In this document: positions 8,650 through 11,366 of the stretch, piece by piece
Position numbering within the stretch: position 1 is the first letter of the stretch
How the letters are laid out: every line of letters begins with the position of its first letter
Origin: Ignavibacteria bacterium RIFCSPLOWO2_12_FULL_56_21
Lineage (GTDB): Bacteria; Bacteroidota; Ignavibacteria; UBA10030
NCBI GenBank assembly: GCA_001802945.1
Contig: MHAK01000117.1
Span: 1-44,065 of the forward strand
DNA length: 44,065 nucleotides
Direction of reading: 5' to 3'
The notes under the pieces: model-generated
The model's database searches: none
The model's input: only the letters and a program-made list of their open reading frames with translations
What the model was told of the DNA's origin: nothing
Translations under genes and position numbers: made by a program

Positions 8650-9150
8650 TTGAACGATTCGGAACTAACGGGGACCTCAATTGTGTCAGAGACGAACCTG
8701 GATACGGTAGAAGAACGGACCGAGCGAGGCCGTCCGCTCGAGTTGGTCCTCCAGCAATTGTGGGAGAAAGCCCGCCGGGTGTCCGCGATCGTTGTGAAAT
8801 TGCGCGACGAAAATTCTTCGCTTCGGGAACGTGTAAAAGAACTTGAAGACGCCAGCCGGTCCCTGTATACGGAACGGGAGAATCTCGTCGTCCGGCTCGC
8901 ACAACAAGAGTCCGAGGGAAATACATCGCGCGATGAGGCACGTGATCTTCGGCAGCGCGTCCGGCAGCTTGAAGAGTCGGACACTCAGGCGCGACGAATG
9001 TTGGACGAGACTTCGCTCCACACTGAGCAAATGAAACGGGAACTGGCCCGGCTCCAGGCGAACGGTAGCGGATCGTTTACCAAGGAGGAGAAGGAAGCGC
9101 TCAAGGTGCGTGTCATGGAGTTGATCGGCAAGATCAACTCCCGACTGTAG
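8650..9150 (+). CDS. Coiled-coil protein between pheT and zapA
   Basis: A 166-residue soluble protein dominated by heptad-like coiled coil (about residues 45-145, rich in Glu, Arg, Leu and Gln). It has no signal peptide and no membrane span. The predicted start is TTG at 8650. The C-terminal 20 residues (KEEKEALKVRVMELIGKINS) look like a conserved helical cap. I do not recognise a named family. Coiled-coil proteins in this position, just upstream of zapA, occur in FCB genomes, and the context suggests a cell-division (ZapB-like) partner. That is inference from neighbourhood and shape, not from a motif. It ends 23 bp before zapA. Confidence 0.8.
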   Translation: MNDSELTGTSIVSETNLDTVEERTERGRPLELVLQQLWEKARRVSAIVVKLRDENSSLRERVKELEDASRSLYTERENLVVRLAQQESEGNTSRDEARDLRQRVRQLEESDTQARRMLDETSLHTEQMKRELARLQANGSGSFTKEEKEALKVRVMELIGKINSRL

Positions 9151-9173: not shown

Positions 9174-9476
9174 ATGACGACCAAGAGCATCAAGGTCAAG
9201 ATCTTCGGCGCAGAATACCCTCTGCGCGGTGATAACGAAGATTTTACCAGGCGCGTGGCGGAAAACGTGGATCGCATGCTAATGAAGATTCACGAAAAGA
9301 TCCCGGAACAACCGCCTCTCACTGTTGCTGTGCTCTCGGCGTTGAACATTACGGAAGACCTGCTCAAAGAACAGGCACGACATCACGATAATATGATGCT
9401 GGTCGAGTCTGAGGTCACAAAGCTTTCGAACTATCTGGATAATCTCCTTCTTCCTGGAGACGAGCAGCTCCTCTGA
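9174..9476 (+). CDS. zapA: Cell division protein ZapA
   Basis: A 100-residue ZapA-family protein. ZapA binds FtsZ and bundles protofilaments at the division ring. Residues 1-45 form the globular domain beginning KSIKVKIFGAEYPLRG, and residues 55-95 are the helical coiled-coil dimerisation part (LTVAVLSALNITEDLL...). Length and layout match the family. It lies 23 bp after the coiled-coil gene and is followed by the probable 6S RNA, an arrangement that echoes the zapA-ssrS neighbourhood known in gamma-proteobacteria. Confidence 0.9.
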   Translation: MTTKSIKVKIFGAEYPLRGDNEDFTRRVAENVDRMLMKIHEKIPEQPPLTVAVLSALNITEDLLKEQARHHDNMMLVESEVTKLSNYLDNLLLPGDEQLL

Positions 9477-9501
9477 GCGTTACGGGTGTTCTTTGCATAC
9501 T

Positions 9502-9529
9502 GGTGCAATGGTGTACACAACACCGCACC
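9502..9529. repeat. Nested palindrome after zapA
   Basis: GGTGC (9502-9506) pairs with GCACC (9525-9529), and inside it GGTGT (9510-9514) pairs with ACACC (9520-9524). The hairpin is stable with one asymmetric bulge. There is no T tract, so it is not an obvious intrinsic terminator. It could be the end of the zapA message, a processing site or a protein-binding palindrome upstream of the RNA gene. Confidence 0.6.
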
Positions 9530-9532
9530 GTT

Positions 9533-9770
9533 GTCCGTCACCAACCATATTAAAGAACCTGACAGTTTCTTAATATGGGAACCTGACTCATAAGTGTGGA
9601 GCGCAAGCCACCGTCCCGCGTTTAGCGGGAGTGCCTCGCGATGACCCCCGCCTTGGCGGGGCGAGCGGGTCGAGTGGAAGTGTAAAATACTTAGGCAGGT
9701 ACCCACTGTGTCTTGAAAAGAGGTTCTTTCAATACACTTGGCGACGGCAGCGCGCGCGGTGTTTTTTTTG
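9533..9770 (+). ncRNA. ssrS: Probable 6S RNA
   Basis: The 324-bp gap between zapA and rny has no credible ORF but strong long-range complementarity, as expected of the long 6S hairpin. CCGTC-A-CCAA (9535-9544) faces TTGG-C-GACGG (9738-9747). AAAGAACCT (9552-9560) pairs perfectly with AGGTTCTTT (9721-9729). A large internal loop follows, then GTGG (9596-9599) with CCAC (9702-9705). An eight-T run at 9762-9769 after a GC-rich segment may end it. 6S RNA mimics an open promoter and sequesters sigma-70 RNA polymerase. Structure and position support the call, but no sequence search was possible. Another structured RNA cannot be excluded. Confidence 0.6.
9612..9661. repeat. REP-like double palindrome within the RNA
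   Basis: Two adjacent hairpins: TCCCGC/GCGGGA around GTTTA (9614-9630), and CCCCGCC/GGCGGGG (about 9646-9661). They are joined by a spacer containing CTCGCGATGAC. This wording resembles dispersed bacterial REP-type palindromes. It sits in the apical part of the probable 6S RNA. No second copy was seen in this window. Confidence 0.45.
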
Positions 9771-9800
9771 TCCTGAGCGGCACGTGAAAACGAGGCGAGT

Positions 9801-11366
9801 ATGGATCCGAATATGATGACGATCGTAATCGGCGCGGCTATCGGCGGAGTGTCCTTCTTCCTGGGCTGGTTCCTGAACGCCCGGAGCGGACACAATAAGC
9901 TGTCGTCCGCCGAAGAACGCGCAAAGAAGATCCTCGAAGACGCTGAAAAGGAAGCCAATACTCTCAAGCGCGAAAAGCTGGTCGAGGCGAAGGACGAGTG
10001 GTTCAAGCGCAAAAAGGACATGGAGGCCGAGCTGCAATCAAGGCGCAACAAGCTCCAGGCATACGAAAAACAGATCCAAAATCGAGAAGAAAACGTCGAG
10101 CGCAAGTTGGAACTCCTGAACAAGAAGGAGTCGTCCGTGCAGCAGTCCGAGCGCGATATCATGGACCGCCAAAAACGGGTGGCGGATAAGGAACTAGACC
10201 TGGAGCGATTGATCGAGGAGGAGATCCACAAACTCGAACGGATCTCGGGCGTGTCGAGGGAAGAGGCTAAGAAATACCTGCAGGAGAATCTCCTGGAACA
10301 GGTGAAAACCGAATCCGCTGTGATGATGAAAGAAGTGCGGGATAATGCGAAGATCGACGCCCGTCGTGAAGCCCAGAAGATCGTTGTGCAGGCGATCCAG
10401 CGTACGGCGGCCGACCACACGGTCGAAACGACTGCGAGTGTGCTGACGCTCGAAAGCGATGAGATCAAAGGTCGTATCATTGGCCGAGAAGGTAGGAACA
10501 TCAAGGCGTTCGAAGCAGCGACGGGAGTCGACGTCATTGTCGACGACACGCCCGAAGCTGTCATCCTCACCGGGTTCGACCCGTTCCGGCGCGAGATCGC
10601 CCGACAAGCGCTCGAGCGGCTGATCGCGGACGGTCGTATTCACCCCGCACGCATCGAGGAAGTTGTCGACAAAGTCAGGAAAGAGCTCGAAGAGGAGATC
10701 GTGCGGATCGGCGAGAACACGCTCCTCGAGGTCGGTCTTCACACAGCCCATGTGGAGATCGTGAAACATATCGGCAAGATGAAATACCGCTCGTCGTACG
10801 GACAGAACCTCCTGCAGCATAGCATCGAAGTTGCCTACCTTACGGGCATCATGGCGTCGGAACTTCGGCTCGATTCGATGATCGCAAAGCGCGCCGGGCT
10901 TCTGCACGACATTGGCAAGACCATCGATCGTAGTGTTGAAGGACCCCACGCGCTGCTCGGTATGGAATTGTGCAAGAAGTACAACGAACAGGCCATCGTG
11001 TGCAACGCCGTCGGATCGCACCATGAGGACATCCCGATGGAGCACCCGATTGCCTCCCTCGTACAGGCAGCGGACGCCATCAGCGGCGCCCGGCCGGGAG
11101 CGCGCAGAGAGTCGGTTGAGGAATACATCAAGCGTCTGGAACGACTGGAAGGGATTGCAAAGTCCTTCAACGGAGTCACGAATACGTACGCCATTCAGGC
11201 CGGGCGCGAAGTGCGTGTCATTGTCAATCATGAAAAGATCGACGACGCGCTGGCTGAACAGCTTTCGCATGACATTGCGAACAAGATTCAGCAGGAAATG
11301 GAATATCCCGGTCAGATCAAAGTTGTGGTGATCCGAGAGGTCCGCTCCGTCGCCATCGCAAAATAG
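9801..11366 (+). CDS. rny: Ribonuclease Y
   Basis: A 521-residue membrane-anchored endoribonuclease that starts mRNA decay. An N-terminal transmembrane segment lies at about residues 7-27. A long coiled coil runs from about 30 to 195. The KH RNA-binding domain includes GRIIGREGRN (about 222-233). The HD metal-dependent catalytic domain has LLHDIGK with His369-Asp370. Length matches the RNase Y family (about 520). The ribosome binding site GAGG precedes ATG 9801 by 6 nt. The likely promoter region is the upstream RNA gene, so rny may be read through from it or have its own start. coaE follows after 8 bp. Confidence 0.97.
   Translation: MDPNMMTIVIGAAIGGVSFFLGWFLNARSGHNKLSSAEERAKKILEDAEKEANTLKREKLVEAKDEWFKRKKDMEAELQSRRNKLQAYEKQIQNREENVERKLELLNKKESSVQQSERDIMDRQKRVADKELDLERLIEEEIHKLERISGVSREEAKKYLQENLLEQVKTESAVMMKEVRDNAKIDARREAQKIVVQAIQRTAADHTVETTASVLTLESDEIKGRIIGREGRNIKAFEAATGVDVIVDDTPEAVILTGFDPFRREIARQALERLIADGRIHPARIEEVVDKVRKELEEEIVRIGENTLLEVGLHTAHVEIVKHIGKMKYRSSYGQNLLQHSIEVAYLTGIMASELRLDSMIAKRAGLLHDIGKTIDRSVEGPHALLGMELCKKYNEQAIVCNAVGSHHEDIPMEHPIASLVQAADAISGARPGARRESVEEYIKRLERLEGIAKSFNGVTNTYAIQAGREVRVIVNHEKIDDALAEQLSHDIANKIQQEMEYPGQIKVVVIREVRSVAIAK

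Follow-up and report, generated by a model that had tools for sequence, protein, structure and literature searches.

A divergent 6S RNA gene in the zapA-rny gap of an Ignavibacteria genome

6S RNA, which is thought to keep RNA polymerase inactive in resting cells, is a global transcription brake. Its apical stem usually bears one simple loop on top, a feature which is not strictly defining, and zapA is a common, if not universal, neighbour of its gene. For beta- and gamma-proteobacteria the arrangement ZapB-ZapA-SsrS is given in a passage of PMC7641849, and PMC4227106 lists pheT in its table entry for 6S RNA of Aquifex. As described in one part of PMC8876501, the 3' bubble strand of E. coli 6S RNA can fold into a 9-bp hairpin once pRNA has unwound the bubble-closing helix, which aids release, whereas a collapse helix is assumed for 6S-1 of B. 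subtilis and the 6S RNA of A. aeolicus. Within the Bacteroidota a family named 6S-Flavo, which is Rfam RF01685, is described in a section of PMC2864571.

The locus considered here was found within a window of 44,065 nt (the whole stretch of DNA that was analysed) from an Ignavibacteria genome, where the Rfam covariance model for 6S RNA, RF00013, matches positions 9520-9763 of the plus strand over model positions 1-187, with 55.7 bits against a gathering score of 46.4. The Infernal search that had been proposed for this gap hence yielded a match above the curated cut-off, which is the only RF00013 match in the genome (3.36 Mb, 138 contigs). Both ends of the gene are approximate, the 5' end lying near 9520, i.e., upstream of the position 9533 which the earlier note had named. 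Positions 9520-9763 are identified as the 6S RNA gene of the host with a probability of about 0.96. The finding is of a known kind, and the zapA-6S-rny setting in Bacteroidota is without a paper in the open-licence literature searched, where no paper was found for '6S RNA' with 'Ignavibacteria' or for '6S RNA' with 'zapA' and 'rny'. The gene and its surroundings are composed as follows, R1 denoting a covariance model built from 25 aligned RNAs of zapA-rny gaps, the window's own included.

9174 to 9476, plus strand: zapA (Pfam PF05164, 51.8 bits, cut-off 23.8)
9477 to 9519, plus strand: leader from the zapA stop to the 6S RNA, with a GTTCTTT box at 9488-9494; may form a hairpin with the 6S 5' strand
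9520 to 9763, plus strand: 6S RNA (ssrS-type) gene (RF00013, 55.7 bits; R1 match 9521-9769, the window itself being a training sequence of R1)
9762 to 9769, plus strand: eight T in a row immediately behind the closing stem, where the transcript probably ends
9801 to 11366, plus strand: rny, encoding RNase Y (Pfam PF12072, PF01966, PF00013)

Folded as a single strand, the RNA reaches -112.6 kcal/mol, whereas shuffles average -78.9 (z -7.16), and none of 200 shuffles was as stable. For the comparative analysis, 99 zapA-rny gaps were cut from fetched loci, of which 72 are distinct (71 of 224-379 nt, one of 695 nt), and 25 gap RNAs including that of the window were aligned, 24 of them from the window's family and one unplaced. 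RNAalifold derived 62 consensus pairs from this alignment. Their cells are paired to 96.8%, versus 90.7% in shuffled and 37.8-43.1% in slid versions, the slid controls being at a disadvantage, since the consensus fold comes from this very alignment. Two-sided changes were found in 32 of the 62 pairs (13.0 shuffled, 10-14 slid) and in 108 cells (30.0 shuffled, 17-41 slid), and none of 500 shuffles, which ignore kinship while the slid controls keep it, reached any of these three pairing measures. Closing stem, central bubble and apical stem are therefore conserved by covariation, and it is these elements, together with the passed family cut-off, which the RNA has in common with E. coli ssrS and RF00013; helical arms around a central bubble are likewise described for B. 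subtilis 6S-1 and A. aeolicus 6S RNA in the part of PMC8876501 mentioned above. The assignment of the gap to a 6S RNA, as made by the earlier note, is borne out by both the model score and these compensatory changes, the latter also answering its demand for pairing that is conserved in relatives. Mapped to the window, the elements of the fold are:

9523 to 9544, plus strand: closing stem, 5' strand, pairing with 9738-9759 (RNAalifold)
9553 to 9559, plus strand: P2-like helix closing the bubble, 5' strand, by analogy the expected pRNA template side
9560 to 9576, plus strand: central bubble, 5' strand (RNAalifold)
9577 to 9611, plus strand: apical stem, 5' strand, pairing with 9674-9704
9674 to 9704, plus strand: apical stem, 3' strand (consensus)
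9705 to 9721, plus strand: central bubble, 3' strand (RNAalifold)
9722 to 9728, plus strand: helix closing the bubble, 3' strand (inverted repeat and RNAalifold)
9738 to 9759, plus strand: closing stem, 3' strand (RNAalifold)

Within the 25 RNAs, the two helices of the closing stem comprise 18 pairs, nine of which show two-sided changes, and the apical stem helices 5-7 are paired in 97.0-99.8% of cells; the bubble-closing helix hardly varies (five of seven pairs invariant), which was counted against the 6S reading. A CCCAC block at 9702-9706, at the edge of the 3' bubble strand, is invariant. The gap ends had been described as complementary over three blocks, a description which holds for the first two and fails for the third. 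Block 1 (9535-9544 with 9738-9747; CCGTCACCAA versus TTGGCGACGG) forms nine Watson-Crick pairs out of ten, all of which are used by the minimum-energy fold, and in the family consensus it is partly shifted by one base (9534-9537 with 9744-9747), resulting in mismatches in the window. Block 2 (9552-9560 with 9721-9729) is a perfect 9-nt inverted repeat, and its region provides the bubble-closing helix of the family consensus, 9553-9559 with 9722-9728. Block 3, 9596-9599 (GTGG) with 9702-9705 (CCCA), is not complementary and is absent from both the minimum-energy fold and the consensus, in which 9702-9704 pair instead with 9577-9579, and 9596-9597 with 9687-9688. The large internal loop is present, with strands of approximately 9560-9576 and 9705-9721.

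The RNA is a divergent form of 6S RNA which is mostly missed by standard models. Of the 79 loci presented to it, R1 recognizes 78, in zapA-to-rny direction, and of the 54 that lie outside its training set it recognizes 53; the one miss is a rny locus of a Chitinophagales MAG (L075) in which no zapA was found, and one match, in the locus with the 695-nt gap (L068, 1305-2000), is divergent and partial (28 bits). Since the rod almost equals its own complement, 25 of the 79 loci also yield weaker matches on the opposite strand (13.6-45.4 bits), and the strand call therefore rests on score. Although R1 was built from gap RNAs only, its best match in the E. coli locus is the annotated ssrS (1385-1573 versus 1384-1566; 14.8 bits, E 0.00055), which is the top one of 18 matches in this locus and L075 together. 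When 118 genomes sampled from the phylum were scanned, R1 gave a single match in each of 52 genomes. RF00013 was detected in 14, of which two exceed its cut-off, and RF01685 in 13, of which four do; the 13 genomes with RF01685 and the 52 with R1 do not overlap. Either R1 or RF01685 was found in 65 genomes and neither in 53 at these stricter filters. Taken together, the two Rfam families exceed their cut-offs in six of the 118 genomes (2 + 4) versus 52 recognized by R1 alone, so that annotation based on cut-offs would miss most such RNAs. Closer to the host the picture is similar, as RF00013 matches 12 of 61 near genomes (own included) with three over the cut-off; that relatives mostly score below the Rfam cut-off sets the RNA apart from RF00013 and was counted against the 6S reading. 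In a genome of the same genus no RF00013 match was found at the locus, and its fit to R1 (198.9 bits) is given by construction, its locus being a training sequence. A scan of 16 chosen loci with all of Rfam returned RF00013 within E 0.1 in three, of which one exceeds the cut-off; no other Rfam family matched in these loci.

Directly upstream of the RNA lies zapA, as it does for ssrS of E. coli K-12; there the order is zapA-ssrS-fau, whereas here rny takes the place of fau downstream. The wider order is pheT, a 166-aa coiled-coil ORF, zapA, 6S RNA, rny and coaE. The 166-aa ORF (8650-9150) occupies the position of zapB; its best Pfam match, Leu_zip, is below the cut-off, and the ZapB profile gives only E 0.26. 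By use of a ZapA profile built from the window's class, zapA was found directly upstream (2-116 nt) in all of the best-scoring 30 of the 52 R1 loci, and rny was found downstream in 26 of these 30; one further locus (L115) is cut by the contig end, and three (L129, L132, L133) show zapA and 6S RNA without rny in the fetched flank. All 12 RF00013 matches among the 61 near genomes (own included) likewise lie just behind zapA. The neighbour argument of the earlier note, put forward for gamma-proteobacteria, also holds in a host that belongs to the Bacteroidota (Ignavibacteria), and the fact that zapA is the common neighbour in Bacteroidota and E. coli suggests that the zapA-6S linkage is old. The published ZapB-ZapA-SsrS arrangement and the pheT entry for Aquifex are in line with this. 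As regards 6S-Flavo, phylum and position are shared, since 12 of the 13 RF01685 loci (L143-L154) are flanked by zapA and rny, neither gene being present at the thirteenth, L155. However, RF01685 has no match in the window at its gathering score and none in the host genome at E 0.001, and its 13 genomes all fall outside the window's class. Judged by position, the Rfam families RF00013 and 6S-Flavo look like a single locus.

The T run that was reported to follow the gap corresponds to the eight T at 9762-9769, and the host 6S RNA would probably end there, followed by rny. Within its final 12 nt, the R1 match contains 7-10 T in the 39 best R1 loci (window included) and 3-7 T, mostly interrupted by A, in 38 other loci (L068 left out); these counts refer to the R1 match, as a count of T runs in 36 of 36 RNAs is circular, the RNAs having been trimmed at the T run, and as T counts taken over entire gaps are uninformative. 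In 33 further members of the class, the closing stem starts 4-12 nt past the zapA stop (by motif, one without a value), the whole zapA-rny gap being 224-255 nt, and in these the RNA is presumably cut from a zapA-6S-rny transcript. In L036-L078, which include records of Melioribacter and Ignavibacteriaceae, the 6S RNA follows the zapA stop by 4-12 nt without a clear T run and looks embedded in an operon.

Such proximity to rny, together with the T run after the RNA in the window and the 39 best R1 loci, would also suit a cis-acting leader or attenuator of rny, by which a structured RNA and its T run control read-through instead of acting on polymerase in trans. That the RNA precedes rny in 26 of 30 phylum loci and that only 224-255 nt separate zapA and rny in the 33 class members is in line with this idea. 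Yet the RNA matches 6S RNA (RF00013) in sequence and structure, it stands behind zapA without rny in the fetched flank of the three loci named above, and the neighbour which it has in common with E. coli is zapA, wherefore an exclusive leader function is considered very improbable; a dual role as 6S RNA and in rny control may exist. Still less probable is an RNA that binds RNA polymerase core and is 6S-like in shape only, as would be the case for a relative of the actinobacterial Ms1, which is called structurally related to 6S RNA in a passage of PMC9130861, since RF00013 scores above its cut-off, the zapA neighbourhood is that of E. coli and the CCCAC block is invariant. The chance that the gap holds no RNA gene at all and merely a fortuitous inverted repeat or coding sequence, for which a 379-aa antisense ORF over the gap and the minus frame open in five of the 25 RNAs could be cited, is next to nil in view of the fold z of -7.16, the covariation and the lack of any open frame in 20 of 25. 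The 6S RNA gene is hence retained as the preferred reading. The antisense ORF (9431-10570, minus strand) covers the gap and part of rny, so that the absence of a spanning ORF, as stated in the earlier note, does not hold to the letter; this ORF is probably spurious, however, no frame being open across the RNA in 20 of the 25 RNAs (a minus frame is open in the other five, window included). A 61-aa ORF (9631-9816, plus strand) overlaps the gap as well.

The fold departs from the textbook rod in two features, a tip that is forked into two hairpins and a central bubble of which each strand can fold on itself; relative to E. coli ssrS and RF00013, the forked tip and the covarying hairpin of the 5' bubble strand are different. 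The features concerned are:

9614 to 9630, plus strand: first tip hairpin (helix 8, two-sided changes in 3/3 pairs, 88.9% of cells paired)
9638 to 9666, plus strand: second tip hairpin (helix 10, two-sided changes in 6/6 pairs; helix 9, 0/2)
9545 to 9578, plus strand: alternative 5' bubble hairpin (inverted repeat of 14 nt, 86%; covariation)
9708 to 9737, plus strand: alternative 3' bubble hairpin (inverted repeat of 11 nt, 91%; covariation), by position an E. coli-type release hairpin

The two tip hairpins replace a single simple loop, and helices 8 and 10 together show two-sided changes in all nine pairs within the 25 RNAs. At the tip, the Rfam alignment omits eight model positions versus 62 window bases, a further point counted against the 6S reading. 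Among 68 distinct class segments, a rough script based on motif anchors counted two tip hairpins in 44, one in 16, three in five and none in three; this count depends on the anchors, several one-hairpin segments being cut short. In the segments of L119-L141 the same script found two in 15 of 21 (three with one, two with three, one with none), whereby L120, L121 and L128 were counted as two-hairpin though the wrong stretch was measured.

The hairpins of the central bubble were assessed by exchanging arms between RNAs, in permutations which for both strands ignore kinship. For the 5' hairpin, with 28 distinct arm pairs of 36 RNAs, swapped arms paired as well as own arms in none of 5000 permutations (z -5.8), and the same was found for the 3' hairpin with 33 distinct arm pairs (0/5000, z -6.3). 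Either hairpin shares bases with one strand of the helix 9553-9559 / 9722-9728 or surrounds it, and an ordinary nested fold can therefore not hold hairpin and helix at once. The collapse helix of the Bacillus/Aquifex type, in which the distal 5' bubble strand pairs with the 3' P2 strand, found no support, as swapped arms were as good in 4821 of 5000 permutations; in this the RNA departs from B. subtilis 6S-1 and A. aeolicus 6S RNA. Like the E. coli hairpin described in the cited part of PMC8876501, the 3' bubble hairpin competes with the bubble-closing helix. As the hairpins are supported by their own arms and the collapse helix is not, the most likely mechanism of release, by analogy, is an E. 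coli-type switch with an extra 5' hairpin. According to this model, the transcript of approximately 245 nt would form a long helix with a central bubble, mimicking a melted promoter, to which, as judged from the family, the housekeeping RNA polymerase holoenzyme would bind and be held inactive at growth stop. When nucleotides are back, the polymerase would copy a short product RNA from the 5' bubble side back through AAAGAACC, a process expected to unzip 9553-9559 / 9722-9728. The freed strands would then adopt their local hairpins, and polymerase release is proposed to follow, the alternative pairing being conserved.

A wider proposal, according to which the Bacteroidota 6S RNA is a distinct structural class at an ancient zapA-6S locus and is matured by RNase Y from a zapA-6S-rny transcript, is as a joint claim regarded as rather unlikely. 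If its first part were true, a class with a Y-shaped tip and with competing hairpins in both bubble strands, the 5' one framing the pRNA template, would be largely invisible to Rfam cut-offs. Maturation by RNase Y, if true, would link the decay of mRNA and cell division with the control of polymerase, and families without a clear T run would hold 6S RNA only as a processed piece of operon mRNA. In practice, the zapA-rny gap is a simple place to seek 6S RNA where models fail.

Upstream of the RNA, a scan for sigma-70-type sites returned one weak site (9414-9443, inside zapA; 0.4 expected), and no terminator-like site was found in the same sequence scan. The GTTCTTT box of the leader is exact in 23 of 25 close gaps, with one change in the other two, and absent in seven of 11 more distant gaps. 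Its pairing with AAAGAAC was set aside, changes in L020, L029 and L017 being uncompensated as judged by eye. A hairpin of the leader with the 6S 5' strand is suggestive only: against shuffled leaders the predicted duplex has a mean z of -2.13 over the 25 gaps (z < -1 in 20), versus -0.71 over 11 other gaps; the fold z of the hairpin is only -0.98, and leaders swapped between species paired as well in 253 of 5000 permutations.
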